DNA of 33,188 nt. Origin: Paludibacter jiangxiensis (GTDB taxonomy: Bacteria; Bacteroidota; Bacteroidia; Bacteroidales; Paludibacteraceae). Position 1 is the stretch's first letter, and each line of letters opens with the position of its first letter. Where the stretch lies: contig CAMBSB010000039.1 of NCBI GenBank assembly GCA_945870155.1, positions 1 to 33,188 of the forward strand. The letters run 5' to 3'. The notes under the pieces were generated by a model that saw only the letters and a program-made list of their open reading frames with translations, did no database searches and was not told the DNA's origin. Positions 1-33,188 of this stretch are shown in pieces. A program made the position numbers and the translations under genes.

Positions 1-2309
1 CGAGCCATAAGATAACTTAATGTTGATTCTGCACCCTGATTCAGATTTACATGTGTTTCTTCCAAACCATCGTAACAGCCTCCGGTACAAGGGTTATAAA
101 CAATTTGTTTCAATCTGTTTTCACCCAAAAACCAATCAAAAGCTATATGCAATTTAGTTAAATAATCCTCAGTTTGAAAGATTTCATAAAATAGATTTAA
201 AGTCATAATGGTATACGAAACATCGATGGGTTGTTCTCCATAATTGGAAGCAATTTCGCCTTTTTTTAACCATTTTCTGTTTGAAATAACTTCTATTCCA
301 TTTTCATTAAATATATTAGCTATAAGAAACTTAAATGCCGATTTTGCAATTCCTTTATATTTAATATCGCCGGTTATGAGCCAAGCATAAAGCAAAGATT
401 CGGGCAGAATACTATTGGCATAAGTAAGGTAGGATTCAAACCACATCCATTTTTCACTCGACTCATGTTTAAACATTTGTACTAATCTGTCGGCAAAGAC
501 TTTGATAAGCGTAACATTCTGAATCGTTTTAACTTGTTTATTGTAATAAAAAATTCCTTTAATTGCAAATGCCATAGCTCGGGTAGAATGAATAGTATCT
601 ATCTGTTCTAATGCATTTTGTAATACTGATTCAGCTTGAACAAAAATATCATAAGGCAATTTATTTTTCATCGATACTAAATATCCTAAAGCCCATACAG
701 CCCTTCCATTGGCATCGTCCAGGTTCACTTCATCATTTTGATTTGTAAATACTTTATTCTCATCTACATAATTCAAAAAAACACCATTTGGCAACTGGCA
801 GAAACTAATAAAATCCAGGTAGGTTTGTATTTTTTCGATGTTTTCATTATCATTGATTGATTTTAATAACATGCATGTAACTATCAATGCACGAGCATTA
901 TCATCGAGTGTATAGCCCGATTTTAAATCCGGAATATTTACTTTCGAAAACTGTAAAATACCAAAATCGGTGGTCATTAATTTCACATGATTCAGATTTA
1001 AGGGTGGTACATTGAATTTCAATTCAATTTTTTGCGGATTTTTTGATTCGAATAATTTGGCATGAGCTACTGCAGAATTTTCCCAAGATGTAGATACTAT
1101 TTTTTGTAAAGTATTAGCTATAATGCATTTACGCAGAGGATAATCATTCATTAAACGAATAACTCCATCGGCTAAAAGAGCTGAATTTTTAAAATCGAAA
1201 ATGATTCCCGTATCTTCAGTTAAAACCTCTTTAGCATGAGGTATGGGAGTTGAAATTATGGGGCAACCGCAACTCATTGCATAAACAAAAGTACCACTAA
1301 CTGCCTGATTTGGGTCATTGGTTGTAAATATATAAATATCTGTCAATTGTAAATATTCAAGTAAAACCGGTAAATCGAGGTACTTATTAATGAACTGTAC
1401 ATTGTCTTCTAATTTAAGCTCTTTAACCTTTGCCATTAAGCTTTCCCTGTAAATTTCGCCCTCATGTTTCACCACTTCGGGATGTGTTTTCCCAATTATC
1501 AAAAACATGATATATGGTATTTCTTTAATAATAGCCGGTAATGCATCCAGGGTTGTTTCTATACTTTTACCTGAACTTAGTAATCCAAATGTGGTTAATA
1601 CTTTTTTGCCCTTTAAGCCATATTTTTCTTTTAAAAATTTTTCATTTAAATGCGTTATTAAATGGGTTCCATGAGCAATTATTGAAATTCTACGTTTAGG
1701 AACTTCATATTCATTCATCAATATATCAGCCGATGTTTTGGTCATTACTATAATTGATTTACATACTGATGCGATGTCTTTAATTTTTTGTTTTAATTTG
1801 TCATCCGGGTTTGGTAAAACAGTATGAAACACAATTACGATAGGTTTTTTTAAGGTATTCAACATTTGCCGAAAAGCTGGCTCATTATCTTTGTAAAAGC
1901 CAAATTCATGTTGTATTAGTATTAATTGAATATGCTTATCTGAATTAATTTCTTTGACAAATTCAGTGTATGAATTGGCATCCGTGGTATCCAGCTTAAA
2001 TTTTACTTCTTCAGGATATTCAAAATCAGATTTACCGGCTTCCAAAGCACATACGTTAATCGAAAATGAATTACTAAATTTATTATTCACAGCTTTTATC
2101 AGGTCTTGCGAATAGGTTGCAATTCCACATTCGCGAGGAGGATAAGATGTTACAACCAAAATTTCAGTTAAATCTTCAATATTTTCCTGTGTTGCTAATA
2201 AATTAATTTTTTTATTAATTTTTTGTGGATATAAAATTTCATCTACCTGATATACTGGTTGTTGAATTATCATTTTATTTGAATGATAAGTATCGGCTAT
2301 ATTTTTCAT
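1..2309 (-). CDS. GT4-type glycosyltransferase with C-terminal helical domain (3' end outside window)
   Basis: About 769 codons are visible and the frame is still open at the window edge. The N-terminal half reads as a GT-B glycosyltransferase of family GT4. It has an early 'TSYPPRECGIATY' segment, 'LIQHEFGFY' in the acceptor-side fold, a 'GLLSSGKSIETTLDALP' segment as in the GT4 donor domain, and 'YAMSCGCPIISTPIPHAKE' around the nucleotide-sugar site. The rest resembles the (alpha/alpha) barrel tail of Bacteroidota proteins annotated only as glycosyltransferase ('LDDNARALI', 'NLNQGAESTLSYL'). The ATG at 2309 overlaps the TGA of the GH130 gene by four bases, so the two are translationally coupled. 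A role in making or remodelling a mannose-containing glycan is inferred from that partner; donor and acceptor are unknown. Confidence 0.85.
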   Translation of the reverse strand, partial: MKNIADTYHSNKMIIQQPVYQVDEILYPQKINKKINLLATQENIEDLTEILVVTSYPPRECGIATYSQDLIKAVNNKFSNSFSINVCALEAGKSDFEYPEEVKFKLDTTDANSYTEFVKEINSDKHIQLILIQHEFGFYKDNEPAFRQMLNTLKKPIVIVFHTVLPNPDDKLKQKIKDIASVCKSIIVMTKTSADILMNEYEVPKRRISIIAHGTHLITHLNEKFLKEKYGLKGKKVLTTFGLLSSGKSIETTLDALPAIIKEIPYIMFLIIGKTHPEVVKHEGEIYRESLMAKVKELKLEDNVQFINKYLDLPVLLEYLQLTDIYIFTTNDPNQAVSGTFVYAMSCGCPIISTPIPHAKEVLTEDTGIIFDFKNSALLADGVIRLMNDYPLRKCIIANTLQKIVSTSWENSAVAHAKLFESKNPQKIELKFNVPPLNLNHVKLMTTDFGILQFSKVNIPDLKSGYTLDDNARALIVTCMLLKSINDNENIEKIQTYLDFISFCQLPNGVFLNYVDENKVFTNQNDEVNLDDANGRAVWALGYLVSMKNKLPYDIFVQAESVLQNALEQIDTIHSTRAMAFAIKGIFYYNKQVKTIQNVTLIKVFADRLVQMFKHESSEKWMWFESYLTYANSILPESLLYAWLITGDIKYKGIAKSAFKFLIANIFNENGIEVISNRKWLKKGEIASNYGEQPIDVSYTIMTLNLFYEIFQTEDYLTKLHIAFDWFLGENRLKQIVYNPCTGGCYDGLEETHVNLNQGAESTLSYLMA

Positions 2310-3346
2310 ATTTTCTTCATGTTTAGTAAAAGTTCTTTCATTAATTCTGACATACTTAACGATGCAACGGCAATATGTGAATCAGCCGCACCGTAGTATA
2401 TAAATAATGTATCGCCAAACAAGGCAGTACCAGTTGGGAAAACAACATTATTAACATCGCCAATTAGTTCCCAACGATATTCGGGCGAAAATAATGGATA
2501 ATTTAATCGTGCAATTTCTTTTCGGGGATCATCAATATCCAATAAAGCAGCAGCACAAGCAGAATAAACAAGTCCTTTATCTGTATCTTCAACTCCATGA
2601 TAAATAAGTAACCAACCATGTTCTGTTTCGATGGGTGGACAGCCACTTCCAATATAACTTGATTCATGTTCAAATTCGGGATCCATTACGATATGATCTT
2701 GAAAATTGCGGAAATAATCATCCCAAAATTCTTTAGTCAAATCCTTAATTTCTTTTATTGAAACAAGTTGAATTCCAGGCCGAATGCGATGTAGAAAAAC
2801 TAAATTACCTTTAATTCGACGTGGAAAAAAAACCAAATTTTTATCCCATAACAAAATCTTTTCATCCGGGTCTGCCTCCTGATAATAAAACTTATGGTTG
2901 TGATAGTAGTTTTTATTCACTTTTCCGGCTTTTTCAACCAAATACACAAAATGTGCGTACGAAATAGGAGGAACTATTAAACCATGCTTTTTGAAATGAA
3001 ATAAATCTTTTGAAGTAGCTAGTGCTCCACGTGCATTTATTCCATCATATGCTGTGTAGGTTAAATAAAAAGTATCATCGATTTTCGAAATACGGGCATC
3101 TTCCACACCTTGTGATTCATAATCAAACTCCGGAATCATAAAGGGTTTATCCCACCTTTCTGCAATAGTTAAAGGGCCATCGAGTTTGCAATAACCTATA
3201 CTTGAATGATTTCCTTCGCGTACAGCTCTATAAAAGATATGAACATTGTCACCTTCGCGATAAGCTGCCGGATTTAAAACTGCTTCATTCTCGAATTCAA
3301 AATCAGTTTTTGATAGTAGAATTCCTTCTTTTTTTACGTTGATCAT
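2306..3346 (-). CDS. GH130 family mannoside phosphorylase/hydrolase
   Basis: The 346-residue protein is a five-bladed beta-propeller enzyme of glycoside hydrolase family 130. It shows the family 'GVEDARI' segment, whose Asp is the expected proton donor, followed by 'YLTYTAYDG'. Later it has 'GSGCPPIETEHGWLLIYHGV' and 'FPTGTALFGDTLFIYYGAAD'. GH130 members cleave or phosphorolyse beta-mannosides, often beta-1,2- or beta-1,4-linked mannose; the linkage cannot be read from sequence by eye. There is no signal peptide, so it is probably cytoplasmic. It is the first gene of a two-gene unit with the GT4 gene downstream (ATGA overlap). A run of GATTGGTT-like repeats lies just upstream of its start. 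Confidence 0.9.
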   Translation of the reverse strand: MINVKKEGILLSKTDFEFENEAVLNPAAYREGDNVHIFYRAVREGNHSSIGYCKLDGPLTIAERWDKPFMIPEFDYESQGVEDARISKIDDTFYLTYTAYDGINARGALATSKDLFHFKKHGLIVPPISYAHFVYLVEKAGKVNKNYYHNHKFYYQEADPDEKILLWDKNLVFFPRRIKGNLVFLHRIRPGIQLVSIKEIKDLTKEFWDDYFRNFQDHIVMDPEFEHESSYIGSGCPPIETEHGWLLIYHGVEDTDKGLVYSACAAALLDIDDPRKEIARLNYPLFSPEYRWELIGDVNNVVFPTGTALFGDTLFIYYGAADSHIAVASLSMSELMKELLLNMKKI

Positions 3347-21828: not shown

Positions 21829-22221
21829 ATGTCAAAATTTGAATTTAATCAACTTTACTTACAGCTTGAACGTGATATCAAACATTTAGCTTTTACCACA
21901 GAAATTGAATATCGCAATGAAGCTCTGGAAGATGCACAAGATGTAATTTCCAAACTAAAAAATGAAATTGAAAACTGGGTTTTACAGTTAAATGAAAGGA
22001 ATATTGCTTGTTATGAATTAGAGAATTTACTTGAATCAAAAAGAGTTGAAATTGCTTTAATTAGATTGAATAGCAAAGGTATTTCTGAAGAAAGAATTGA
22101 AACTTTCAAGGGCGATATTTTACGTTTTATTGCTAAAGCAATTATGAATATTTACCTGGATTCATTATTCAGAAATCAAAACAGAAAAGTAAATCAAAAC
22201 GACTTATTTATCGAAAACTGA
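21829..22221 (+). CDS. Hypothetical helical protein
   Basis: The 130-residue, acidic and strongly helical protein has heptad-like spacing between residues 20 and 70 ('EIEYRNEALEDAQDVISKLK', 'IENWVLQLNERNIACYELE'), suggesting a coiled coil. There is no signal peptide, membrane segment or motif that I recognise. A weak TATATTTA box at 21777-21784 lies 44 bases upstream. It stands alone on the plus strand between yigZ and the comM fragment. Confidence 0.7.
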   Translation: MSKFEFNQLYLQLERDIKHLAFTTEIEYRNEALEDAQDVISKLKNEIENWVLQLNERNIACYELENLLESKRVEIALIRLNSKGISEERIETFKGDILRFIAKAIMNIYLDSLFRNQNRKVNQNDLFIEN

Positions 22222-22487: not shown

Positions 22488-23389
22488 AGTATTTACAAAA
22501 AATATCAACCTGCCCAACCTTCTCTGTCCAAATTTCTGTAATTTATTGCTTCGGCAATGTGATTTGAAAGAATATTCTCTGATCCATCAAGATCGGCAAT
22601 AGTACGGGCAACTTTTATTATGCGGTCGTAAGCGCGAGCCGACAAATTTAATCTTTGCATGGCATTTTTCAACAATTCAGAACCTGCTTTATCAATTTGA
22701 GCATAAGATCGCATCTGTTTCGATGACATTTGTGCATTACAATACACACCTTCAATATCCGTAAATCTTAATTCCTGAATTTGACGCGCTTTTATCACTC
22801 GCTCACGAACAGTTTCACTATTTTCGGCATCTTTTAATTCCGACAACTTCTCAAACGGCACAGGTACAATTTCTATATGAATATCTATTCTATCGAGTAA
22901 AGGGCCTGAAATACGACTCAAATACTTCTGAACAACACCAGGCGCACACACACAATCTCTATCAGGGTGATTATAATAGCCGCACGGACAAGGATTCATG
23001 GAAGCAACTAACATAAAACTTGCAGGATATTCTATGGCAAATTTCGCCCTTGAAATACAAATCTTTCTGTCCTCGAGGGGTTGACGCATAACTTCCAACA
23101 CTGTTCTTTTAAATTCAGGTAGTTCATCCAAAAAAAGGACACCATTATGAGCCAGTGAAATTTCACCAGGTTGTGGAAAAGTCCCACCACCAACCAAAGC
23201 AACATCCGAAATTGTATGGTGTGGACTTCTAAAAGGTCGTTGAGAAATTAGCGAAGTATTGCTATCAATATTACCTGCAACTGAATGAATTTTTGTTGTT
23301 TCAAGTGCCTCATGCAATGTTAAAGGAGGTAGTATTGTTGGAATTCTTTTTGCCAACATTGATTTTCCGGCTCCCGGAGGTCCTACCAT

Positions 23390-23411
23390 TATTATAGTGT
23401 GAACTATTATA
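23390..23411. other. Probable left attachment site (attL) of the integrated element
   Basis: comM coding sequence ends here: codons for 'IIMVGPPG' occupy 23376-23396 on the minus strand. The junction carries an imperfect palindrome, 23390-23398 against 23403-23411, 8 of 9 positions paired around GTGA. Large serine recombinases use short imperfect-palindrome sites with a central dinucleotide. The exact crossover bases cannot be fixed without the empty site or attR. Confidence 0.6.
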
Positions 23412-23429
23412 CAGTAACAAAATAAGTTG

Positions 23430-23437
23430 TATATTTG
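23430..23437 (+). promoter_or_regulatory. -7 promoter box (TATATTTG) for the recombinase
   Basis: TATATTTG matches TAnnTTTG 31 bases before the ATG at 23469 and about 30 bases inside the element edge. No TTTG is seen at -33. Confidence 0.5.
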
Positions 23438-23468
23438 TGCCATTATAAACAATTTAACGCTTAAAAAT

Positions 23469-25391
23469 ATGAATAATATTAACAGTTATTGGGGTAATGA
23501 ATGCATTATTTTAACAAGAGTTTCAACCCAAAAACAAGATTTTGAGGGTCAAAATATCGATTTAAAGAAATACGCTGAAAGTTTAGGTTTTACAAAAATA
23601 CAAATAATTTGCACAAAAGAAAGCGGTTTTAAAACTTTTGAGTCAAAAGAGGGCTTTAAATTGGTTGTAGACTATTTAAACAGTAATCCAGATTGTAAAA
23701 CTATTTTCATCACTGAATTGAGTAGAATTGGACGCAATCGGCAAGTAATCACCAACATAGAATATTATTTAAAAGAAAATAAAGTTAATTTAATCGTTAA
23801 GGACACAAATATAAGATTATTTGATGATTTGGGTAATTATAACCAAAGCAGTAGTATAATGTTTGCCATTTATTCAAGTTTTGCCGAATCAGAAATGAAT
23901 CAAAAAAAAGAGAGATTTTCGAGGGGGAAAAAGAAACTTTTTGCTGAAGGTTTTAGTGTAACTGGTTCTGTTTTATTTGGATATGATAGAGTGATGGATG
24001 ATGTTGTTAAAAAAAATAAGTATGTAATTAATGATATTCAAGCCGAACAAATAAAAACAATTTTTAATTGGTATGTTAACGGCATTGATGGCGATGTATC
24101 AAAAAGCAGTTTGAAATATTTGACACTTGAAAGCATTAAAAGGGGGTTCGATAAATATCTACATTCAAAGCGAAATGTTAATAAATGCTTAAAAGAAAAG
24201 GCATATTTGGGGCAAAAGATTACTAATAATATTATGAAAAATGCTGAATATTGGGAATATAAACAACTTGATAAACCTAAATATATTAACGCTCAAAGCA
24301 TGTTGATTAAATATCCAGTAATTTTATCGGAAAATTTATTTAACAGTGTTCAATTGAAATTAAAAGAAAAAAATTCTGATAGTGATAAAAGTAAGCACAT
24401 TACAATTTTGTCAAAATTAATAGTTTGCCCAATATGTAACCATTATTTCAGGGGGGAATATTTGAACAAAAATACAACTGAATTGCATCACTTTTATAGG
24501 TGTTCGCATTCGAAAGCGGTCGTAAATAAATGTGTTAACAAATCGACTTTTTCGATGGTTCAATTAGATTCTGTGTTGTGGTTATTCATTAAAGAAAATA
24601 TATCAGAATTGATTAATAAATTAAATGAGTATTATCAAAATATTGATATTGAAGATATTAAGTTTAAAATTGAAAATGTGAGGGAAAAAATAAAGGAATA
24701 TGAAACAGATAGGGAAATAGAAAATAACATTTTTCGTAAATCTTACAAAAGTGCGAAAGATACTAATTTATTGATAAAAAATTTTGATGATGTAATAGAT
24801 TCCATCGATCTAAAAATTGAAAAATTAGAAAATGAAATTAATGAAATGAATGAATTAATTAACGATTTGGAATTAAATCAAAAAACTGACAAACAAGATG
24901 TTATTAATAAAATAAATGATATTCAAATTAACAAAAGCGAAATAAGAAAGTATATCAGATTGTTTGTTAAAAAAGTTATTCCTATATATTCAAATCGAAA
25001 ATATACAGTTTTAAAAATTAATAGTTTGGCAAATTTGGGAAGTACAGCAAATTTCAAAGATTTGAATAATATAAAATTTGAAAATAAAACCGCCGAAATT
25101 GAATATTATATTATAATAAATAAAAATGATAACAAAAGAATCAGAATCAAATATTTTGAAAATAGTATGAATGTTCTTTTTGAAAATGAATGCTTTAATT
25201 TAAACGATAATATAACAAATTTGGATGATATATGGCAAAATGATGTAAATACATTAGATGATAGTTTTATAAATTTGAGCGTTCAAAGCAAATTGTTTTT
25301 AGAACAAAATGTATTACAGTTTAGTTTGAATGAATTAAAATATGTAAGGTTTGAAAATGAATTGTATAAGGTTGACCAGAAAATAAAATGA
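23469..25391 (+). CDS. Large serine recombinase (integrase)
   Basis: From ATG 23469 the product is 640 residues. A resolvase-type catalytic domain (about 11-155) has the nucleophile Ser19 in 'LTRVSTQKQ' and '[12 protein letters not shown]'. A recombinase DNA-binding domain follows (about 170-300). Next is a zinc ribbon beginning Cys320-x2-Cys323 ('CPICNHYF') with further Cys in 'YRCSHS' and 'NKCVNKS', then a coiled coil (about 390-480) and an AT-rich-coded tail. This is the serine integrase layout, which integrates between short attP/attB sites without host factors. The frame is open 14 codons upstream, but those overlap the promoter box. It presumably inserted the element into comM. A directionality factor is not recognisable. 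Confidence 0.94.
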
Positions 25392-25404
25392 TAATCTTTT
25401 GATG

Positions 25405-25530
25405 TTATTTATTCAAATCTTTGTTTTCCTTATATTCCTTTTTTAGTTGTTTAAATCTATATTTGTAACTCGATGGATGATTAAATAACAGTATTAAAAT
25501 AATGTTTACAAAGTATTTAAGTTTTTTCAT
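25405..25530 (-). CDS. Possible 41-residue membrane peptide
   Basis: A minus-strand frame begins 'MKKLKYFVNIILILLFNHPS' and ends in a charged tail ('YRFKQLKKEYKENKDLNK'). One short hydrophobic segment and basic ends would suit a small membrane peptide. It has an A-rich leader but no good promoter box, and lies between the recombinase stop and the strong terminator at 25554. It may be chance; no homologue comes to mind. Confidence 0.25.
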   Translation of the reverse strand: MKKLKYFVNIILILLFNHPSSYKYRFKQLKKEYKENKDLNK

Positions 25531-25553
25531 TTGCCTATAATTTTAAAGGTTAT

Positions 25554-25589
25554 AAAAAAGTGCTATATATCAGATATAGCACTTTTTTT
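25554..25589. terminator. Very strong bidirectional terminator after the recombinase
   Basis: AAAAAAGTGCTATAT (25554-25568) and its exact complement (25574-25588) form a 15-bp stem with a 5-base loop and T-runs on both strands. It insulates the recombinase gene from the rest of the element. Confidence 0.9.
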
Positions 25590-25824
25590 GATAGAGTATA
25601 AATAATAATGTAAAAAAGTAAAACGAGAGAGAATTTAAAATAAATATAAAGGAATTTTTTTTAATCAAAAAATTAAGTTTTATTTTTTAGAAATTAAATT
25701 TTATTATATGCAATTAAGTTTTTGTAATAATTAAGTTTTGTTTTGTTTTATGCAAATGTACTGTAAATATTTTGATTTTTGGAAAAGTTTGAAAAATAAT
25801 TTTAATTTATGTAATATTTTTTTA
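25590..25824. other. AT-rich non-coding gap
   Basis: I see no gene. AATTAAGTTTT recurs three times (near 25670, 25710 and 25730). A TACATTTG box on the minus strand at 25753-25760 could drive a short RNA toward the terminator at 25589. The surrounding CAAATGTACTGTAAAT recurs at 27118-27133. Confidence 0.5.
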
Positions 25825-26205
25825 TTAAACGGCTCTAAACAAATCTTGAATCGAATTAAAAACATCAAATTGAATTGTATCAGTGCCATTTTTTATAACT
25901 TTTGCTATTGTGTAATACTCTAAACAAAAATTTGTAGTTACATCGACATTATATCTTAATTTTACTATTTCATTTGTTTTAAATTTGTTAACGAAGTCTG
26001 TTTTGTATAACATTTTAGTTTTACGAGAATCTTTTAAATTTTTAATATCCTTATATGTTTTATAAAGTGAATTAACTGATTCAGACCTAGATAATGCACC
26101 ATTATAATTTAATTCTCTTTCATTTTTTGGAATAATTTTTCCATCATTTTGAAACAATTTTATTAAATCTGTTGTTTCTTTTTCTTTTTTGATTGTTACT
26201 ATCAT
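25825..26205 (-). CDS. Element-encoded hypothetical protein
   Basis: The 126-residue protein is basic and rich in Lys, Asn and Thr, with no signal peptide or membrane helix. The first 75 residues look helical ('ESVNSLYKTYKDIKNLKDSR'). The last 50 look beta-rich ('VKLRYNVDVTTNFCLEYYTI', 'NGTDTIQFDVF'). I recognise no family. It lies 97 bases downstream of the 197-residue gene with the 32-bp palindrome between them, and is probably read from the same promoter or from one near the palindrome. Confidence 0.6.
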   Translation of the reverse strand: MIVTIKKEKETTDLIKLFQNDGKIIPKNERELNYNGALSRSESVNSLYKTYKDIKNLKDSRKTKMLYKTDFVNKFKTNEIVKLRYNVDVTTNFCLEYYTIAKVIKNGTDTIQFDVFNSIQDLFRAV

Positions 26206-26258
26206 TTTTTTAATTTTTTAATTTTTGATTTATTGGTTGATAGTAGATTAATATCCAT

Positions 26259-26290
26259 ATCAACATACTATATTAATATAGTATGTTGAT
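26259..26290. repeat. Perfect 32-bp palindrome
   Basis: ATCAACATACTATATT (26259-26274) is followed by its exact reverse complement (26275-26290) with no loop. It sits 12 bases after the stop of the 197-residue gene and 53 bases before the start of the 126-residue gene. There is no T-run, so an operator, partition or recombination site is more likely than a terminator. A related CATACTATATATATAG occurs at 29729-29744. Confidence 0.9.
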
Positions 26291-26302
26291 AAGCGGACAA
26301 AA

Positions 26303-26896
26303 TTAATTTTTCCAATTTTGTGTTTTTTCATATTCATTTTTAAAATCAATATGATTAATTCTTTCTTTATGCTTAAAAATTGCATATGAATAGTAATCAA
26401 TAAAATTTTCAAATATTTTTAAAATATATTTAAAATCATCATGCCTATAATCTTTAAAACATATTATAATAAGTAAATTGTCAAAATCAACTAAATTTTG
26501 TGTTGATGTTAAATCTTTTCTATATATATATAATTCATTTAAATTTTCATCAAATTCAAAACGGAAAACACCAAATTGATTAAAATGTACATTAAAAAAT
26601 TCAATAATCATTTTATTGCCATTCACATTTTCAATCATTTTGCTATCATTCTTAATTATCATTTTGTTACTTCTCAAATAATTGCATATAATTTTATCAC
26701 ATATGGAACTTGAACAATATTCAGTATTATATAATTTTAAATTTTTTATAACACCATTGTAAGTATAATTAATTTCATCAAGAGTACAATATTTTTTGCC
26801 ACTTTTCATCAATTTTTTAATTGATTCAATTACTTGAATTATTAAATCATTTTTCAATTGTTTACTACTTTTTTTTTCTTTTTCGGTTTTTACCAT
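26303..26896 (-). CDS. Element-encoded hypothetical protein with possible winged-helix N-terminus
   Basis: The 197-residue protein has a lysine-rich first 20 residues. Helices follow in 'KYCTLDEINYTYNGVIKNLK', then 'CDKIICNYLRSNKMIIKNDS', which could be a winged helix. The C-terminal half mixes beta-strands ('MIIEFFNVHFNQFGVFRFEF', 'LNELYIYRKDL') and a final helical region. I recognise no family and the HTH suggestion is weak. It has a good Bacteroidota promoter (26936-26968). With the 126-residue gene it forms a minus-strand unit diverging from the replication operon across the 2.9-kb repeat region, a layout typical of regulatory or maintenance genes. Confidence 0.65.
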   Translation of the reverse strand: MVKTEKEKKSSKQLKNDLIIQVIESIKKLMKSGKKYCTLDEINYTYNGVIKNLKLYNTEYCSSSICDKIICNYLRSNKMIIKNDSKMIENVNGNKMIIEFFNVHFNQFGVFRFEFDENLNELYIYRKDLTSTQNLVDFDNLLIIICFKDYRHDDFKYILKIFENFIDYYSYAIFKHKERINHIDFKNEYEKTQNWKN

Positions 26897-26935
26897 TTTT
26901 TTCTTTTTTAAATTAATAATTTGATTTGTTTTTCA

Positions 26936-26968
26936 CAAAGGTACTATATTTTTTTGATATTTTGCAAA
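26936..26968 (-). promoter_or_regulatory. Promoter (TTTG-N21-TACCTTTG) of the 197-residue gene
   Basis: On the minus strand TTTG (26968-26965) is 21 bases before TACCTTTG (26943-26936), which is 39 bases before the ATG at 26896. This is a good match to the phylum consensus. Confidence 0.65.
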
Positions 26969-27158
26969 TGTATTAAGTGATATTAACTGTATATTTGCTA
27001 TCATTAACATTAATTAAATATACATTTAAATTATTTTGCTATAAGAATAACATTAATGATTTTATATGTGTTTTTTGCTGTTTTAATGCTGTTTTTTTAA
27101 ATTCTCTTCCCTTTTCTACAAATGTACTGTAAATGTTTAGACTTTTTGAGTTAAGTTT

Positions 27159-27319
27159 CTAAACGATGGCAAGTTCCCTGAACGGATTGATAAGACCCTA
27201 AACGATGGCAAGTTCCCTGAACGATGGCAAGCCCTGAACGATGGCAAGCCCTGAACCATTGGCAAGTTCCCTGAACCATTGGGCAAGTTCCCTGAAAGGA
27301 ATGGCAAGCCCGAACCATT
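27159..27319 (+). repeat. Iteron-like array of about nine degenerate 17-21 bp units
   Basis: Consensus CTGAACGATGGCAAGTTCC. Units differ in length (19, 20, 19, 17, 17, 20, 21, 19 and a partial) and vary at the GATGG/CATTGG step. TGAACCATTG recurs once more near 27384. Lengths that are not multiples of three rule out a coding repeat, and there are no spacers as in CRISPR. The array is about half G+C inside DNA that is mostly A+T. Confidence 0.85.
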
Positions 27320-27537
27320 AATTTATTGTTAAAATTACTTTGAATGATTTTAAGCTCTTTTAAGCGACTTTTTTAATATTGTTTGAACCATTGCACAAAT
27401 AAAGGGGCGAAGATAGAACAGCGGTAAAATAAAGCGGTAAATTGATATATTATTTAGATTTTGTATACAGCATATAAAAAAGAGGGGTTGAATTTACATC
27501 TTTCATTGAATGTTAAATTAAAATACACTTTAAATTG

Positions 27538-27677
27538 AATTAACAAATTAAAAAAATGAATACATTGCTCTGCAACAACCTATTAATCAACATATTAAAT
27601 AAATCTTTGAAGTAATTAACAAATTAAATAAAATGAATACATTGCTCTGCAACAACCTATTAATCAACATATTAAAT
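27538..27677 (+). repeat. Tandem 63/64-bp direct repeat with duplicated mini-frames
   Basis: Copies at 27538-27600 and 27614-27677 differ by one inserted base in the A-rich part. Each includes an A-rich leader and an ATG (27556 and 27633) starting MNTLLCNNLLINILN. The first frame runs 19 codons to 27615, the second 15 codons to 27680. The peptide would be short and hydrophobic. Translation is unproven. Confidence 0.75.
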
Positions 27678-27880
27678 TGATTTAATAGTACAATAAAGGT
27701 ACATCTTCAAAGAAAATCTACATTTTTTTAAATTAAATGAAAATAAATTTTGAAACTACTCAAAAAATCGAAATATATACAGTACATCCCGCCCGCCCCT
27801 GTACATTGATGTAAAAATCTTAAGACATATGTAATTAAAATATTCAATTAAAATTTGTAATTTCTTTTTTACATTTTTTT

Positions 27881-27914
27881 TCTTTTTAAAATATGTTTCT
27901 TTTTAAAATATGTT
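27881..27914 (+). repeat. Exact tandem duplication of a 17-bp unit
   Basis: TCTTTTTAAAATATGTT occurs at 27881-27897 and again at 27898-27914 with no change. Confidence 0.85.
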
Positions 27915-27940
27915 TTTTTTACATTTGTATTTTTTAAAAT

Positions 27941-27984
27941 AACATATGTAATAAAAAACATATGTAATAAAAACATATGTATTG
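27941..27984 (+). repeat. Three tandem AACATATGTAATAAA units
   Basis: The unit recurs at a 15-16 bp period (27941, 27957, 27972), each with the palindrome ACATATGT. Another ACATATGT is at 27825-27832, and related ACATTTGTA and CAAATGTA words continue to about 28075. They look like protein-binding direct repeats. Confidence 0.75.
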
Positions 27985-28121
27985 TTTTTTTTAACATTTA
28001 TTTTCTTTTTAACATTTTAATCATTTTAACATTTGTATTTTGAAAAAATAAACATTTGTACTAAACGCAAATGTATTGTTTTTTTTATTTTTGTTAATTT
28101 CCTGAAAGGGGTTTTTAAATG

Positions 28122-28320
28122 GTCATAAATTTAATGATTTTAGATAGTTCAAAGAATTAGTTTTATAGTTAATTTAAGCACTTTAAAAGGGGGGTATATA
28201 TCTGGACACTCACAGTACTCAAATTGCGACATATATAATAATAAAGAAAAGAAAAGAAAGATTTTTTCATTTTCTTTGTTTTTTTTGGGAAAAAACAGAA
28301 AAAGAAAAAGGAGAAAAAAT
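28122..28320 (+). repeat. Copy 1 of a duplicated 200-bp non-coding block
   Basis: Nearly identical to 28377-28574. It contains, in order, GTCATAAATTTAATGATTTT, a G-run, TATATATCTGGACACTCACA with GTACTCAAATT, an A/G-rich stretch, and an imperfect hairpin of T-rich and A-rich arms around TTGGG. A chance 70-codon minus-strand frame crosses it, but the second copy does not preserve that frame, so it is non-coding. Confidence 0.85.
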
Positions 28321-28376
28321 AATTTAGGATTGATATAAAATCTATAATTCTAAACACGACTAAACTTTTTTTAATA

Positions 28377-28574
28377 GTCATAAATTTAATGATTTTAGAT
28401 AGTTCAAAGAATTAGTTTTATAGTTAATTTAAGTACTTAAAAAGGGGGTATATATCTGGACACTCACAGTACTCAAATTACTACACATATAATAATAAAG
28501 AAAAGAAAAGAAAGATTTTTTCATTTTCTTTGTTTTTTTTGGGAAAAAACAGAAAAAGAAAAAGAGAGAAAAAT
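28377..28574 (+). repeat. Copy 2 of the duplicated 200-bp block
   Basis: It starts 255 bases after copy 1. Differences cluster around the G-run (GGGGGG against GGGGG) and just after GTACTCAAATT (GCGACATAT against ACTACACAT). The T-rich hairpin is unchanged. Two copies of a structured block suggest paralogous small RNAs or paired binding sites. Confidence 0.85.
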
Positions 28575-28952
28575 GTAATCAATATTTTTTTAAAGTTTAT
28601 ATGTTTATGTATCTTCAAATTTTAGAATTAACAACGCCCCCGCCCCTCAAACCATCGCCCCCAAAAAGTCATTAGTTATTAAAATAATTTATTAAATAGG
28701 TTAAATATAGTATATTTATTTAGTATTATTGTATATTTATGCATTAAAATTGACATATAAATACAAGAAAAAAGCTATTTATTTGATGTTAAATTTACCG
28801 ATTTAATTCAATACATAAACTCAATAAAACCCCCTTAACAGCTACATTTTAGCCATTTTTGTACTATTCCATAATTCTACATTAAAAGGCTGCAAAATCG
28901 TAAACTTTGGTTTTTGCCTTTTCATTCACACTATTTAATGGATGAGGTTTGG

Positions 28953-28985
28953 AGGGCGGGGCCTCATTTCTTTATTGGCCGCCCT
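28953..28985. other. GC-rich hairpin in AT-rich DNA
   Basis: AGGGCGG (28953-28959) pairs with CCGCCCT (28979-28985) across 19 bases. An alternative stem joins ATGAGG (28943-28948) and CCTCAT just beyond the first G-run. No T-run follows. Two competing stems suggest a structured RNA or a single-strand/nick origin rather than a terminator. Confidence 0.6.
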
Positions 28986-29350
28986 ACCCATTTGATAATC
29001 AGTATATTATGTCTGTATTGATTTAGCGGAAATATTACATAAAATAAATAAAAATATATATTCTAATCTTTTTTATTAAAATTTTTATTTAAAACTTCAT
29101 AAACTTACATTTTAAGAATTAATTAAGAATTAAACAGCAATTCAATTTTAAAGCTTTAAATCAAAACATTTCTGCATTGCTAATACAAACAACTACTAAA
29201 ACAATTTAAGTCCTTTAAACCTCTTTAAATTGAATATATAAAGCAATGGGATAAGTACATTACAATCTCTTTCAACTACCTTTTAAATTGATGATCCAGA
29301 ATCATATCATTATATCAATTCAATTCAAATACATGTCTTTCTTTTTATCT

Positions 29351-29371
29351 ATAAAATTTTGCAAATTTTAT
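29351..29371. repeat. Inverted repeat ATAAAATTT-TGC-AAATTTTAT
   Basis: Nine-base perfect arms around a 3-base centre, about 440 bases upstream of the replication operon. Could be an operator; in such AT-rich DNA chance is possible. Confidence 0.5.
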
Positions 29372-29638
29372 TTTTAAAATAAATTTTAAATGAAAGCAGA
29401 CAAGACGACCATCGCCCCAAATTTGAAAAAAAATTAATAAAATATTTTATTTCAACTTTTTTTTTCAAAATTATTTTTGAAAAGTTTTTTACACATCTAA
29501 TCGATTGTATTTCAATAATATAAATTTTTATTTTTATTTTTTTGAAAAATAATTATTTAATTTCCTGTACTTTTTATCATTTAAATATATTTAATTATTT
29601 AAATAATATGCTTAATTATTATACTATCTATAAAGAAT

Positions 29639-29720
29639 CTACATTTTGTCGGCTCTTTGATATACTTACTTATATATAAACATAATAACAGACTGTATTA
29701 ACCTATTATATTTTGTCAGC
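29639..29720 (+). promoter_or_regulatory. Repeated TAnnnTTTTGTC(G/A)GC-like element before the operon
   Basis: CTACATTTTGTCGGC (29639-29653) and TTATATTTTGTCAGC (29706-29720) are 67 bases apart, 90-160 bases upstream of the first operon gene. They resemble the -7 promoter box with one extra base, or paired regulator sites. No better promoter is visible for this operon. Confidence 0.35.
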
Positions 29721-29810
29721 ATATTAGCATACTATATATATAGAATAAGATATTAAGCTATTAATCAATAAATAAAACAATAAATAAATACAAACTAAAC
29801 TCTAAACAAA

Positions 29811-30041
29811 ATGGAAAGACTAAGAAAAAAAATGACCAAAGAACAAAAGAAAAAAATTGGGGATGCAAATCGAGGGAAAAAGCGGACGCCCGAAACAATC
29901 GAAAAAATGAAAGAGGCAAAAAAAAATGTTGTTGTAACAAACGAAACAAAACAAAAATTATCTGATTCATTGAAAAAATATTGGTCGACTGTGATATGGG
30001 TTGATGAAACAGACAACGAAACTATTAACACAATAAAATAA
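29811..30041 (+). CDS. Stand-alone NUMOD3-like DNA-binding protein
   Basis: The 76-residue, highly basic protein carries two NUMOD3-type motifs: 'TKEQKKKIGDANRGKKRTPE' followed by 'TIEKMKEAKK', and again 'TNETKQKLSDSLKKYW'. NUMOD3 repeats usually form the DNA-binding tail of GIY-YIG or HNH homing endonucleases. Here there is no nuclease domain, so it may be a small DNA-binding or regulatory protein. It is the first gene of the plus-strand operon, ending one base before the winged-helix gene's ATG. The short hydrophilic C-terminus 'IWVDETDNETINTIK' is unlike the repeat. Function is inferred only. Confidence 0.7.
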   Translation: MERLRKKMTKEQKKKIGDANRGKKRTPETIEKMKEAKKNVVVTNETKQKLSDSLKKYWSTVIWVDETDNETINTIK

Positions 30042-30042
30042 T

Positions 30043-30714
30043 ATGGATAGGGAAAAACAAAAAATAATCGAAATGGGAAATTTCACAATCAACCCGATTC
30101 ATTTGAACATTCTATTAACACCATCTGAAAATATTATATTTAACATTATTATGCATTTTGAGGATGTAAATCAAATTTATATCAGTTTATCAGTTTTAGA
30201 ACTTTATTCAAGCTTTGCCAAATCATCGGTTATCAGAATGAAAAATAATTTAATCAAAATGAATTTTATTGAGATTACAAAAGAAACAAACAAAGGTTCT
30301 ATCATTGTAATTAAATGGAAAGAAATTTATAACATTTTAAAAAAAATAGATGATGAAAAGAATATTGTTAACAAATTAAAAATATGTGATGAATATAGAT
30401 TTAAACAGAATTTAAATGTAACAAACAAAGGTAATATTAACAAATATACAAATAGTGCTTTTGATATTTCATTAAACAATCAAAAACCTGAAATTGAACG
30501 GATTGAACAAAAGAAAGGATTAATAAAAGAGTCAAAAGATGTTATTGTAATACAACTAAATGAGATACAAAAACAATTGGAAATAACTGAAGATTTAACA
30601 GAAAAAAATGAATTAAATAACGAAATTAACAGATTAAAAAGACTAGCAAAATCAAAAAATAAAAATATAACATTTAACACAAATAAAAAATTATGGATAA
30701 TAACGAAATATTAA
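30043..30714 (+). CDS. Winged-helix protein with coiled-coil tail (candidate replication initiator or regulator)
   Basis: The 223-residue protein has an N-terminal winged helix (about 24-92): 'LTPSENIIFNIIMHF', then 'ISLSVLELYSSFAKSSVIRM' as the likely recognition region, then wing 'NFIEITKETNKGSIIVIKW'. A lysine/asparagine-rich linker and a coiled coil (about 160-205, 'IQLNEIQKQLEITEDL') follow. This resembles plasmid replication or MarR/DnaD-like wHTH proteins in plan, though I cannot name a family. In front of a helicase-primase and after an iteron-like region, an origin-binding role is reasonable but unproven. The 68-codon gene that follows starts inside its last 22 bases. Confidence 0.7.
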   Translation: MDREKQKIIEMGNFTINPIHLNILLTPSENIIFNIIMHFEDVNQIYISLSVLELYSSFAKSSVIRMKNNLIKMNFIEITKETNKGSIIVIKWKEIYNILKKIDDEKNIVNKLKICDEYRFKQNLNVTNKGNINKYTNSAFDISLNNQKPEIERIEQKKGLIKESKDVIVIQLNEIQKQLEITEDLTEKNELNNEINRLKRLAKSKNKNITFNTNKKLWIITKY

Positions 30715-30899
30715 AAGACACAAAAATAGTTGAAAAATTTCTACTAGATACATTTAAAGAGTATAAAAGAAATTTAAAAGAGGATGGAAATAAAAGCGAA
30801 AAAATCAGACTTTTTTCTGATATAAGAAAATTGGTTAATACCTTATATTTCCATCCCTCTTATCACGAAGATTTTTTTTTAGAAATAGGAAATGAGTAA
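30693..30899 (+). CDS. Small hypothetical protein in the replication operon
   Basis: The 68-residue, charged and helical protein ('IVEKFLLDTFKEYKRNLKED', then 'RLFSDIRKLVNTLYF') has no motif I recognise. Its ATG lies inside the end of the winged-helix gene in another frame, a 22-base overlap that suggests coupled translation. The frame keeps the same AT-rich codon use as its neighbours. Confidence 0.6.
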   Translation: MDNNEILKDTKIVEKFLLDTFKEYKRNLKEDGNKSEKIRLFSDIRKLVNTLYFHPSYHEDFFLEIGNE

Positions 30900-30930
30900 T
30901 AATAAATAAAATACAATGCAATATGAGTAA

Positions 30931-31092
30931 ATGAATAGTAATAGTAATAAGAATAAAAAAGTAAAAAGTGAAGCGGTTTTGAAGTTTGAAGCGATGAAAA
31001 AATCAATCAATAAACTGTTAAAAGAAAATGTTATAACAAAATCTGAAAGCATATATTTAATAAATAATTATTTAAACAATCTTGATAAATAG
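30931..31092 (+). CDS. 53-residue hypothetical protein just before the helicase gene
   Basis: The frame begins MNSNSNKNKKVKSEAVLKFE and ends in 'IYLINNYLNNLDK' with TAG at 31090-31092. Only two bases separate it from the helicase-primase ATG, so it is probably translated in the operon. It is basic at the start, helical throughout and without cysteine. No family is recognised. An accessory or loader role for the helicase is possible but speculative. Confidence 0.6.
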   Translation: MNSNSNKNKKVKSEAVLKFEAMKKSINKLLKENVITKSESIYLINNYLNNLDK

Positions 31093-31094
31093 TT

Positions 31095-32948
31095 ATGAAA
31101 ACATTTAACAATACAATAAGCAAACAGATTTTAAAACAGTCCGTTAATAATCTTTATGAAAGCGGTTTGCCATATGGATTAACAACCGATTCAAAGAATT
31201 TAGATGATATTTTTAGAATTGATAGGGGGAAACTTGTAACAATAACAGGCATCCCCAATATGGGCAAAAGTGAATTTTTAGACTTTCTATGTGTGCAGTA
31301 TAATAAGATACATAAACTAAAAACTGTTTATTTTTCGCCCGAAAATCAACCCATCGAATTACATTTTAGTAAGTTGATTAGTAAGTTTACAAATCAAACA
31401 TTTTCAAACAAAATTGATAAAAATGAATTCGATAAAACAGTTGATTATATAACAGATAATTTCTTTTTCCTGAATTATGAAAATATATTTAACTTAGAAT
31501 CTGTATTAACTGAAACTGAAAATATAGTTAATAATAACGAAAATGTTGGAATTCTAGTAATCGATTCATTTAACAAATTAGAGGCTCAAAAAGATTTCAA
31601 TGTTACAGAAACAGACTATATATCAAAGATTTTAGATAGTTTGGAAAGGTTCGCCAAAAGGTTAAATTTAATTGTTTTTCTTGTAGCACATCCCAGGAAA
31701 ATGCAAAAAGATTCAAGCGGAAACTACTCTATTCCAAGCCCTTATGATATAAATGGCAGTGCAAACTTTTTCAATAAATCGGATTATTGCATCACGGTAC
31801 ATCGCGACTATTCAGAAAATAATACAATCATTAAAATTGATAAAGTAAAATTTAAAAATTATGGCGTTGTAGGTGAAACAATTTTGGGGTACGACCTAAA
31901 AAGCGGAAATTATTTTGATATTGAACAAAGCGGAAATTATTTTGATATTGAACAAAATTATACTTATGTGCCTAAAAATTTTATTATTCCAGAAAGCAAA
32001 GAAAATAATAATACAATTGATTATCTAAGTACCGAAATAAGTTTTTTTAACGATATTAAAGATGTAATTCCGAAAAGTAGTACATTGAAAGAAATTTTAT
32101 TTTCTGAAAAATTTAAAGGTCAAAGAAATAAGATCGAAATTTTAAGAAATGAATTGGATTATGAGAAAAGAAAAGCTTTAAAATCTAATCTATTGAATTA
32201 TTCTGTTTCCTGCACATTTGAGGGCAAAAGGGCAAAAGAAAACATTAAAGAAATTAATAATCTTGTTTGCATCGATATAGACAAAAAGGATAATCTTCAA
32301 ATCATTAATAAAGTACCCAATATTTTAAAAAGTATTGATAATGTGTTATTTAGTTCAAAAAGTTGTGGTGGTGATGGTTATTTCTGTATAATACCAATTC
32401 AGGATAAAAACAATTTTTTAGGACATTGGAATAGTTTAGAAAAGGACTTTAAAAAATTAGGTATTGAGATTGATAAGCAATGCAAAGATGTTTCGAGGGT
32501 TCGTTATTTTTCAATTGATAATGATTATTATTTAAATACAAATTGTACGATTTACAATCGAATTTCAAATGTTTCTAAATCAAATGATAAGAACACAAAC
32601 AAAAGTATATTAAATGAAAATAAGGCATTTAAAACAGATAATAAGATAGATTTACAGTCAAAAGATACTTATCAAAAAATAATTAAAATAATTAACGATT
32701 GTAAAATAAATGATATAAATTTAACTGAAAATTATTCAAATAGATTTACTGTTTGCATGTCTCTAATTTCTGAATTCGGGGAAAACGGGCGGGAATTGAT
32801 TCACGAATTTTGCAAACTATCAAAAAAATATGATAAGGCAAAAACTGATGAGAATTTTGATAACTTATTAGAACGATATGAGGGAAACAATGATTATACA
32901 ATTAACTCTATATATCACATTTATAACAGCTTACATCAATTAAATTAA
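31095..32948 (+). CDS. Helicase-primase fusion in reversed order (Twinkle/DnaB-type ATPase + VirE_N/PriCT-like)
   Basis: This is a 617-residue protein. Residues 35-270 are a RecA-fold replicative helicase of Twinkle/DnaB type: Walker A 'GIPNMGKS' at 52-59, 'VYFSPENQP', Walker B 'ILVIDSFNKLE' with Asp157, 'FLVAHPRKM', then 'PYDINGSANFFNKSDYCITV'. After a linker holding a 27-bp duplication, residues about 315-480 match the VirE_N/BT4734-like domain (PF08800): 'ISFFNDIKD', 'CIDIDKKD' with Asp394 and Asp396, 'FSSKSCGGDGYFCIIP', and 'IDKQCKDVSRVRYFSID'. These parallel archaeo-eukaryotic primase motifs, but the usual histidine of motif II seems replaced. The last 90 residues resemble PriCT-2. Such domains normally come before a helicase, so the order is reversed. 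Confidence 0.82.
   Translation: MKTFNNTISKQILKQSVNNLYESGLPYGLTTDSKNLDDIFRIDRGKLVTITGIPNMGKSEFLDFLCVQYNKIHKLKTVYFSPENQPIELHFSKLISKFTNQTFSNKIDKNEFDKTVDYITDNFFFLNYENIFNLESVLTETENIVNNNENVGILVIDSFNKLEAQKDFNVTETDYISKILDSLERFAKRLNLIVFLVAHPRKMQKDSSGNYSIPSPYDINGSANFFNKSDYCITVHRDYSENNTIIKIDKVKFKNYGVVGETILGYDLKSGNYFDIEQSGNYFDIEQNYTYVPKNFIIPESKENNNTIDYLSTEISFFNDIKDVIPKSSTLKEILFSEKFKGQRNKIEILRNELDYEKRKALKSNLLNYSVSCTFEGKRAKENIKEINNLVCIDIDKKDNLQIINKVPNILKSIDNVLFSSKSCGGDGYFCIIPIQDKNNFLGHWNSLEKDFKKLGIEIDKQCKDVSRVRYFSIDNDYYLNTNCTIYNRISNVSKSNDKNTNKSILNENKAFKTDNKIDLQSKDTYQKIIKIINDCKINDINLTENYSNRFTVCMSLISEFGENGRELIHEFCKLSKKYDKAKTDENFDNLLERYEGNNDYTINSIYHIYNSLHQLN
31902..31955 (+). repeat. Exact 27-bp tandem duplication inside the helicase-primase gene
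   Basis: AGCGGAAATTATTTTGATAT plus TGAACAA occurs twice in a row (31902-31928 and 31929-31955), adding the peptide 'SGNYFDIEQ' a second time in the interdomain linker. The reading frame is kept. Perfect identity suggests a recent event or an unstable length. Confidence 0.95.
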
Positions 32949-33006
32949 AAATAAAACAAAAATAAATTACTAAATAAATAAATTAAAAAAAAACAAATTA
33001 AAAATT

Positions 33007-33188
33007 ATGAACAAAGAAATTAAAATTAAAGATTCAAAAAAAATCGGTGAAACAATTGCACACCTGCAAAATTTGGCAAATGTACTATCAGATAATTTGC
33101 AGAAATTAGATAGTTATAATGCAATTTATCAGATTATTGACAAAGAAATGATTTACGAAATAACAACCTATCGAGATGAAAAGAGCAA
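33007..33188 (+). CDS. Hypothetical protein, 3' end outside window
   Basis: ATG at 33007 follows an A-rich leader 58 bases after the helicase-primase stop, in the same direction. About 60 codons are visible: 'MNKEIKIKDSKKIGETIAHL', then 'LANVLSDNLQKLDSYNAIYQ'. The visible part is helical and lacks signal peptide and motif. It is probably the next gene of the operon. Confidence 0.6.
   Translation, partial: MNKEIKIKDSKKIGETIAHLQNLANVLSDNLQKLDSYNAIYQIIDKEMIYEITTYRDEKS

Follow-up and report, generated by a model that had tools for sequence, protein, structure and literature searches.

The closest described systems are mobile elements that interrupt comM (yifB) or comEC. In the survey of Durrant et al. 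2022 (PMC10083194), magnesium chelatase/ATP-dependent protease homologs are the target of 12.4% of predicted site-specific large serine recombinases (LSRs); judging by the annotation name, this target gene is probably comM/YifB. Phage WO lies in a magnesium chelatase gene of Wolbachia (Bordenstein and Bordenstein 2022, PMC9203015), and the Streptococcus pyogenes prophages Phi1207.3 and Phi10394.4 bring serine recombinases into comEC (PMC4260502). Croucher et al. 2016 (PMC4774983) describe mobile genetic elements (MGEs) in comM of several proteobacteria, put forward the idea of an intragenomic conflict and place the action of ComM after DNA import; ComEC is the uptake channel, and a hit in both genes would stop uptake as well as the later step. 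Here we analyse the entire contig C39 (CAMBSB010000039.1; 33,188 bp, hereafter the window) of a draft genome of Paludibacter jiangxiensis (5.79 Mb in 339 contigs, 97.9% complete, 2.95% contamination). Its content is very probably best explained as a whole by an LSR-type integrative element inserted in comM, with a sister element carrying another cassette in comEC.

LSR insertion into comM is already known, and the element in the window is a further instance. An earlier note on this DNA had put it forward as a parallel to the AbaR islands, of which it is not the first, LSRs in comM homologs having been reported before (PMC10083194, PMC9203015), and had expected the loss of ComM to lower DNA uptake; because ComM acts after import, it is the recombination of transforming DNA that would fall instead. 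With the survey of Durrant et al. (PMC10083194) our locus shares an LSR in a comM homolog, the convergence of many distant LSRs and the enrichment of competence genes, but the available text of that study gives no codon position, AT core or pair of cassettes on one backbone. Phage WO sr1WO (PMC9203015) likewise combines LSR integration with chelatase portions on both sides, but is a Wolbachia prophage. The two S. pyogenes prophages (PMC4260502), with serine recombinases inside comEC, parallel the sister element and differ in their GA dinucleotide and three serine recombinases, as against an inferred TT and one LSR here, and in belonging to another phylum. The AbaR and Tn7-like islands of Acinetobacter (PMC11472951) also interrupt comM and are linked to low transformation, but enter by Tn7-like transposition, while the MGEs in comM of Aggregatibacter, Mannheimia, Francisella and Pseudomonas (PMC4774983) also carry an integrase, of a type left unstated in the available text, but occur in other phyla. 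In the titles and abstract starts of the open-access literature we found no precedent for a single backbone whose two integrase cassettes lie in comM and comEC of the same genome, nor for an integrase module exchange of this kind.

The junction in the window comprises the following features:
22505 to 23392, minus strand: 3' half of comM (yifB), the ATPase module, with Pfam Mg_chelatase and Mg_chelatase_C matches and 95% identity to an intact relative.
23379 to 23420, minus strand: attL, made up of a 12-bp host attB half (23379-23390), the core AT (23391-23392) and the element half-site (23393-23420), from comparison with attR and 29 loci.
23391 to 23392, no strand: inferred AT crossover dinucleotide, from a symmetry scan of attL and attR together with native gene length and residues.
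23469 to 25391, plus strand: LSR1, a large serine recombinase of 640 amino acids (aa), with Pfam Resolvase and Recombinase domains, a zinc ribbon just under cut-off and a match to the phrog_95 integrase.
23393 to 33188, no strand: the part of the element in the window, continuing past the contig end; at its far side the element ends in L005:1-492, which adjoins the 5' half of comM.

The comM frame, which is on the minus strand, can be followed from the stop codon at 22505 to 23392, beyond which it reads into AT-rich DNA (19-27% GC per kb in the element from 24 kb on, 27-40% in the host part to 22 kb). Pfam places its product in Mg_chelatase (profile positions 26-205 of 207, E 1.1e-83) and Mg_chelatase_C (E 1.1e-34), and it shares 95% identity with an intact ComM of the same genus over residues 215-512 of the latter. 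A ChlI family search of the same genome found the 5' half on contig C309 (3,686 bp; L005:444-1154), where a frame with a ChlI/Lon-like domain corresponds to residues 1-219 of the 512 of the intact same-genus ComM at 87% identity, ends in GGHNIII and gives way to 492 bp of AT-rich element DNA, at the codon that matches the break in the window. The Mg_chelatase profile is divided between the halves, positions 2-28 falling on the N-half and 26-205 on the C-half. No further comM copy was found in this genome: the C-half search matched the window only, and the ChlI search gave three places, one being the ComM N-half and two lying in frames of other genes (476 and 815 aa). comM is divided by element DNA, with one copy of each half, and with no intact copy found we regard the gene as split. 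An old comM duplicate was considered and excluded on the single copy of each half.

The 350-aa gene that adjoins the 5' half on C309 matches the comM flank of relatives at 14 of 29 loci. Against relatives, the N-half reaches 89.4% identity at best and the C-half 95.5%, a gap that is normal since intact relatives, compared with locus L027, show a like one (79-95% in the N part, 89-97% in the C part). The C-half occurs in 188 of 199 genomes, this one included.

Intact comM was compared at 29 loci (L027-L055), the best-matching of the C-half search and mostly of the same genus, and G-G-H-N-I-[IV]-[ML]-[VI]-G-P-P-G-A-G-K is present with identical spacing at every one of them; the two halves of the window genome together fit the intact gene. 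We scanned in-frame cores common to attL and attR and chose the placement that combines native length with strong symmetry. Five registers have native length; GHNIIM is restored by three, all with the core AT, and only one of these is symmetric (the other two pair at 8/28 and 7/28). The crossover inferred in this way falls within the second Ile codon of H-N-I-I-M-V-G-P-P, 5 bp ahead of the V codon, and the corresponding core of attR is L005:493-494 on C309. The resulting attB, GGTCATAACATT-AT-AATGGTAGGACC, is a near-palindrome of 26 bp over the codons G-H-N-I-I-M-V-G-P, with 10 of 12 arm pairs, and the attP predicted for the circle junction of the comM element, TTACTGTATAATAGTTCACACTATA-AT-TATATTTTGCACAATTATACAGTTGC, has arms that pair at 21 of 28 positions (mean 14.2 and maximum 19 in 300 shuffles). 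Hybrid attL and attR, a short common core, a longer inverted-repeat attP and a short palindromic attB are all present at comM, which is the att anatomy of an LSR. Serine integrases usually have a non-palindromic core dinucleotide that sets orientation, although this is usual rather than defining. AT is its own reverse complement, so under the general serine integrase rule this core should not fix orientation.

LSR1 begins at ATG 23469, 77 bp from the AT core, and the listed TTG-started open reading frame (ORF) at 23427 is probably too long for it. The protein has the domain order of a large serine recombinase, a Resolvase domain (PF00239, E 4.3e-18) followed by Recombinase (PF07508, E 3.1e-6) and zinc ribbon (PF13408, E 4.9e-5; 24.0 bits against a cut-off of 25.3) in a long chain, and matches PHROG integrase family 95 (E 7e-49). 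Upstream of it we note one further feature:
23430 to 23437, plus strand: TATATTTG, candidate LSR promoter in the element arm, by sequence and position only.
This octamer fits TAnnTTTG, which we take to be the Bacteroidota -7 promoter consensus.

A relative of LSR1 occupies the same site in an uncultured Porphyromonadaceae metagenome-assembled genome (MAG; G130, CAMTPD010000338.1), where an LSR 50-51% identical to LSR1 diverges from a comM C-half at the same codons. At the start of that contig (G130:C338), L007:1-47 is adapter-like, presumably of Illumina origin. With this genome counted each time, LSR1 has matches at E 1e-3 in 17 of 199 genomes, where most of the matching frames are ~200-240 aa long, in 14 of 393 genomes of the order at E 1e-15 and in 2 of 395 genomes of the phylum at E 1e-20. 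A single-protein pattern scan of genome contigs and viral contigs found no relatives, and a two-row LSR alignment used as the pattern found three genome-contig and two viral-contig loci, of which G130 alone is close. Matches among phage and plasmid records are distant only (57 and 42 records, none covering 80%), and phmmer found no PDB relative at E 0.001.

Much of the earlier note is borne out by these results. Its serine-recombinase element at the codons leading into the Walker A motif of comM agrees with both gene halves, with attL and attR and with the G130 LSR at the same codons; the break does fall in a conserved codon block, the motif being present at all 29 intact loci. The 5' half that it expected at the other end of the element is on C309, an intact comM elsewhere, which would have spoken against it, was not found in this genome, and the comparison with comM lacking an insert, which it proposed along with an attL/attR alignment, gave an uninterrupted site at 29 of 29 loci and an inferred AT dinucleotide. 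Two of its details shift slightly: homology was said to be lost exactly before VGPPGAGK, and the break is indeed just upstream, but the crossover lies 5 bp before the V codon; the integrase gene, placed within 70 bp of the break, starts nearby but 77 bp from the core.

The ComEC family (PF03772) is represented in the same genome at two places only, each partial, on contigs C121 and C199. C121 (L122:641-3690) carries a second recombinase gene, LSR2 (616 aa; 641-2491, minus strand), that diverges from the 3' part of comEC, and C199 (L123:1-1420) carries the 5' part. The parts map to adjoining stretches at all 30 relatives' loci: alignment of the N-part extends to its residues 320-330, that of the C-part begins, at 27 of 30, with its residue 23-25, and the two meet at T-L-M or equivalent. 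Intact comEC has the same outer neighbours as the two parts, an rpe-like gene and a DHH-type gene of 340 aa (identified by eye), at 17/30 and 12/30 loci. LSR2 has a Resolvase match (PF00239, E 1.2e-19) and a zinc ribbon under cut-off (PF13408, 22.3 bits), with PF07508 not found, and the attP predicted for its element is AATAGTTGTAATACATATTATAACATTGATG-TT-AGTTTGTGTTATGACAAGTATTGCAACTATT. ComEC family matches occur in 186 of 199 genomes, this one included. The near-complete relative G057 shows the family as two weak matches, possibly another split comEC.

Both ends of the comEC element resemble those of the comM element, and two features of the window mark the shared border:
25517 to 25832, no strand: first stretch of the backbone that the comEC element has in common, with 96% identity to C121:1-321 and no difference in the final 119 bp, as far as the break of contig C121.
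25554 to 25588, plus strand: hairpin with a 15-bp stem and T-rich 3' arm, close to where the integrase cassette ends and possibly a terminator (fold z -4.4, a stability reached by 0 of 200 shuffles).

The alignment of the window with C121 covers 322 columns in matching orientation, and at the other end C309 and C199 are 95% identical over the first 359 aligned columns, the first 149 bp without a difference. Between these shared borders, ~2.3 kb with attP and the LSR differ, and LSR1 and LSR2 are 23% identical over 384 aa. A hairpin lies in the shared part near both borders (fold z -4.4 in the window, -5.7 in C309, -7.6 in C199). Judged by their sequence, the comM and comEC insertions are sister elements at their borders, with a common outer backbone and a different attP-LSR cassette.

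We propose that an integrative element, phage-like in its helicase-primase and possibly a prophage or phage-derived, entered the chromosome by means of its own LSR through recombination of attP with the attB in comM, a reaction that LSR1 would catalyse. Insertion would leave a ComM N-piece of 219 residues with a short read-through tail and a C-piece without the first 25 positions of the AAA+ model; since the split runs through the ATPase domain, no normal ComM is expected and its function would be lost. The shared borders point to an exchange of attP-LSR cassettes between the sister elements, and the cassette may accordingly be a targeting unit that can be swapped, here directed at two transformation genes. 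There is about an even chance, in our estimate, that this describes the system fully: one backbone with distant serine integrases aimed at comM and comEC, both in one genome, cutting uptake and post-uptake recombination, the palindromic AT core of the comM cassette leaving orientation unset. The sister pair is a natural experiment in which the backbone is constant and the target differs, and the predicted AT-core integrase would test whether core asymmetry is needed in nature. The comM insertion further defines, to the base, the att sites by which an LSR targets this gene in Bacteroidales, in which our survey met three codon blocks of comM in use.

Why competence genes are targeted, by selection to avoid deletion through transformation or as a by-product of conserved, dispensable genes, divides the two readings that share this LSR integration. 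That comM and comEC serve simply as conserved and dispensable targets, with loss of transformation a side effect of no benefit, seems to us a balanced proposition: attB coincides with a conserved codon block, both genes are widespread (188/199 and 186/199 genomes), there is no sign that the host is transformable, and with comEC already split little is gained by a further hit. It sits less easily with two distant LSRs on one backbone in two genes of one pathway in one genome, and with the report of Durrant et al. (PMC10083194) that DNA competence genes are strongly enriched among LSR targets. Selected targeting, in which splitting comM or comEC spares the element deletion by incoming homologous DNA as in an intragenomic conflict, we consider plausible but somewhat doubtful. 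Croucher et al. 2016 (PMC4774983) argue for it from MGEs in comM, inactivation of comM in Acinetobacter is tied to low transformation (PMC11472951), and the double hit in the window genome fits it; the window genome gives no sign of competence, ComM loss in V. cholerae plays a very minor role with identical DNA, and the redundancy of the second hit for blocking transformation calls for caution about selection.

The remaining alternatives concern the state of the insertion itself. An old, decayed relic would agree with an element whose middle was not located and for which there is no evidence of excision, but is improbable given that LSR1 and LSR2 are open and without stops, the att inverted repeats are recognisable and the sister borders are ~95% identical. 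Still less probable is a contig mis-join or a mixture of strains behind the comM and comEC junctions; the draft contigs do break at a shared repeat and the nearest relatives agree weakly for the comM halves, but the four junctions are intragenic, restore the native frame and carry inverted-repeat att arms, the outer genes fit relatives on three of four sides, and G130 has the same comM junction independently. A strain mixture is possible for the narrower matter of both hits being in one cell. The Listeria prophage A118 in comK is an example of a reversible switch of the excision type. At comM a clean LSR junction would restore the gene exactly on excision, yet a switch of this kind is the least likely of the explanations we weighed, with no recombination directionality factor recognised in the visible part of the element.

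Against an LSR-type integrative element in comM with a sister in comEC, several observations have to be set. On the 3' side of comM, the window genes at 21829 and 21089, the two compared, match none of the 29 relatives' loci, so that synteny backs the 5' side only, and the nearest relative is not the same throughout, L032 being closest to the N-half and L027 to the C-half (rank correlation 0.36, p 0.054). C39 and C309 are tied by gene content and att symmetry, with no assembled sequence between them, as are C121 and C199; in a draft assembly, the comM and comEC insertions could sit in different cells. The middle of the element was not located, stretches of 76 of the 339 contigs giving no candidate, and backbone identity is a measure of the borders only. 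The empty-site comparison rests on loci of relatives, none of the same species; in 28 genes of intact relatives (the 29 without L047) site palindromy averages 6.8/12, and in only two of them is the site as palindromic as any in the gene. Two further in-frame placements give attP pairings of 22/28 and 20/28, but change the length of ComM by two codons, and between G130 and the window the element arms of attL have just 13 of 30 positions in common. The comEC attP arms pair at 19/28, under the shuffle maximum of 21 (mean 14.25, 300 shuffles), so the TT core there is less certain. As to orientation, LSR1-type elements adjoin the comM C-half in two of two cases, and the opposite orientation, on viral contig L083, belongs to another LSR lineage, 25% identical. 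The hairpin in the window was not called in a consensus terminator scan of 23300-25700, whereas that of C309 (267-299) was.

LSR genes occur beside comM elsewhere in the order as well. Four of 15 matches in an order-wide LSR search lie within 1.5 kb of a comM half (this genome, G130, G399 and G363). In G399 and G363, both comM halves are on one contig, ~27.3 and 31.7 kb apart, at a second comM site, and their LSRs are 31% identical to each other and 25-27% to LSR1. The complete 27.3-kb LSR element in comM of G399 (G399:C7 ~228381-255686; L076/L079) contains, by eye, a macro-domain/DarT-like gene pair and a ubiquitin-like/E2/E1-JAB gene set, and the 31.7-kb element of G363 (G363:C57 ~145113-176790; L077/L080) is the second one at that site. 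Viral contig L082 has a third LSR at the second comM site. The distant LSR lineage of L083:1-2356 (IMGVR_UViG_3300025716_000049) lies at the comM site of the window, adjoining the N-half and hence in the opposite orientation; its LSR has a match in 1 of 393 genomes at E 1e-40, that of G399 at 33% identity. Further LSRs converge on comM pieces that end at NPCPC|GYY in G193, in a G139 fragment and in the Acetoanaerobium phage ANDSL2_ph1, and at least three comM codon blocks occur beside LSR genes. A re-search for broken comM covered 22 genomes and gave a match in 16. Broken comM in G006, G008, G012, G022, G075, G109, G114, G117 and G179 was excluded from the insertions, the pieces ending at contig ends.

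The comM pieces of G193 (L095) and G139 (L107) end at residue 354; a different contig of G139 (L093) holds comM as an intact frame. In ANDSL2_ph1 (PP197248.1, L089:5932-8092; from culture supernatant) an internal comM fragment, residues 192-354, converges on the integrase gene; integration at NPCPC|GYY could join it to the host 3' end and rebuild an AAA+-only ComM. The Evtepia phage NatCom_42594 (PV036445.1, L088:4205-5104) has the first ~303 residues of comM, closed by a stop at the codons for AHHGV, a piece that could restore the 5' end on integration or could be host flank. In IMGVR_UViG_3300022936_000191 (L084:43-651) a comM N-half ends at DVKER (~residue 203) and is followed by phage-like ORFs, one of them terminase-like by eye, with no LSR beside it; this end is possibly a further comM site.

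Beyond the integrase cassette, the element part in the window encodes the following ORFs:
25825 to 26205, minus strand: ORF of 126 aa, no family match.
26303 to 26896, minus strand: ORF of 197 aa, no family match.
29811 to 30041, plus strand: ORF of 76 aa with a NUMOD3 motif, a DNA-binding piece of homing-endonuclease type (Pfam NUMOD3, phrog_314).
30043 to 30714, plus strand: ORF of 223 aa, no family match.
31095 to 32948, plus strand: fusion of DnaB-like helicase, BT4734-like_N and PriCT_2, 617 aa, a phage-type primase/helicase (Pfam, phrog_18375, phrog_239).

Partial matches to the 617-aa helicase-primase occur in 228 phage records, of which 188 are Flavobacterium phages, and in a search for defence cargo it matches two PADLOC models in its PriCT_2/primase part, the only one of five element ORFs with a PADLOC match. 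Among six ORFs of the window and one of C309, together ~10 kb of element, there are no phage structural genes (capsid, tail, terminase), and the ORFs searched in this part include no Tn7-like transposase, the junction gene being an LSR, and no genes of an integrative and conjugative element (relaxase, type IV secretion). Transposition is disfavoured by the LSR at the junction and by the lack of a transposase match among the element ORFs searched, the middle of the element being unassembled. Contigs C46 and C50, of the lowest GC among those sampled and read whole, contain no 21-mer of the tested element contig ends and look host-like by eye. Three backbone proteins and LSR2 gave no viral-contig match by peptide patterns, whose reach is close relatives only, and the backbone has no DNA match among phages and plasmids. 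Within the genome itself, the right-end DNA of the element matches C309, C199 and, weakly, C81. The gene-poor part of the element contains direct repeats (27152-27311, 27517-27670 and 28112-28574), which include short units of the GGCAAGTTCCCTGAACG type, a tandem pair of 77 bp and a block whose copies are spaced by 254-255 bp and are 94-95% identical.

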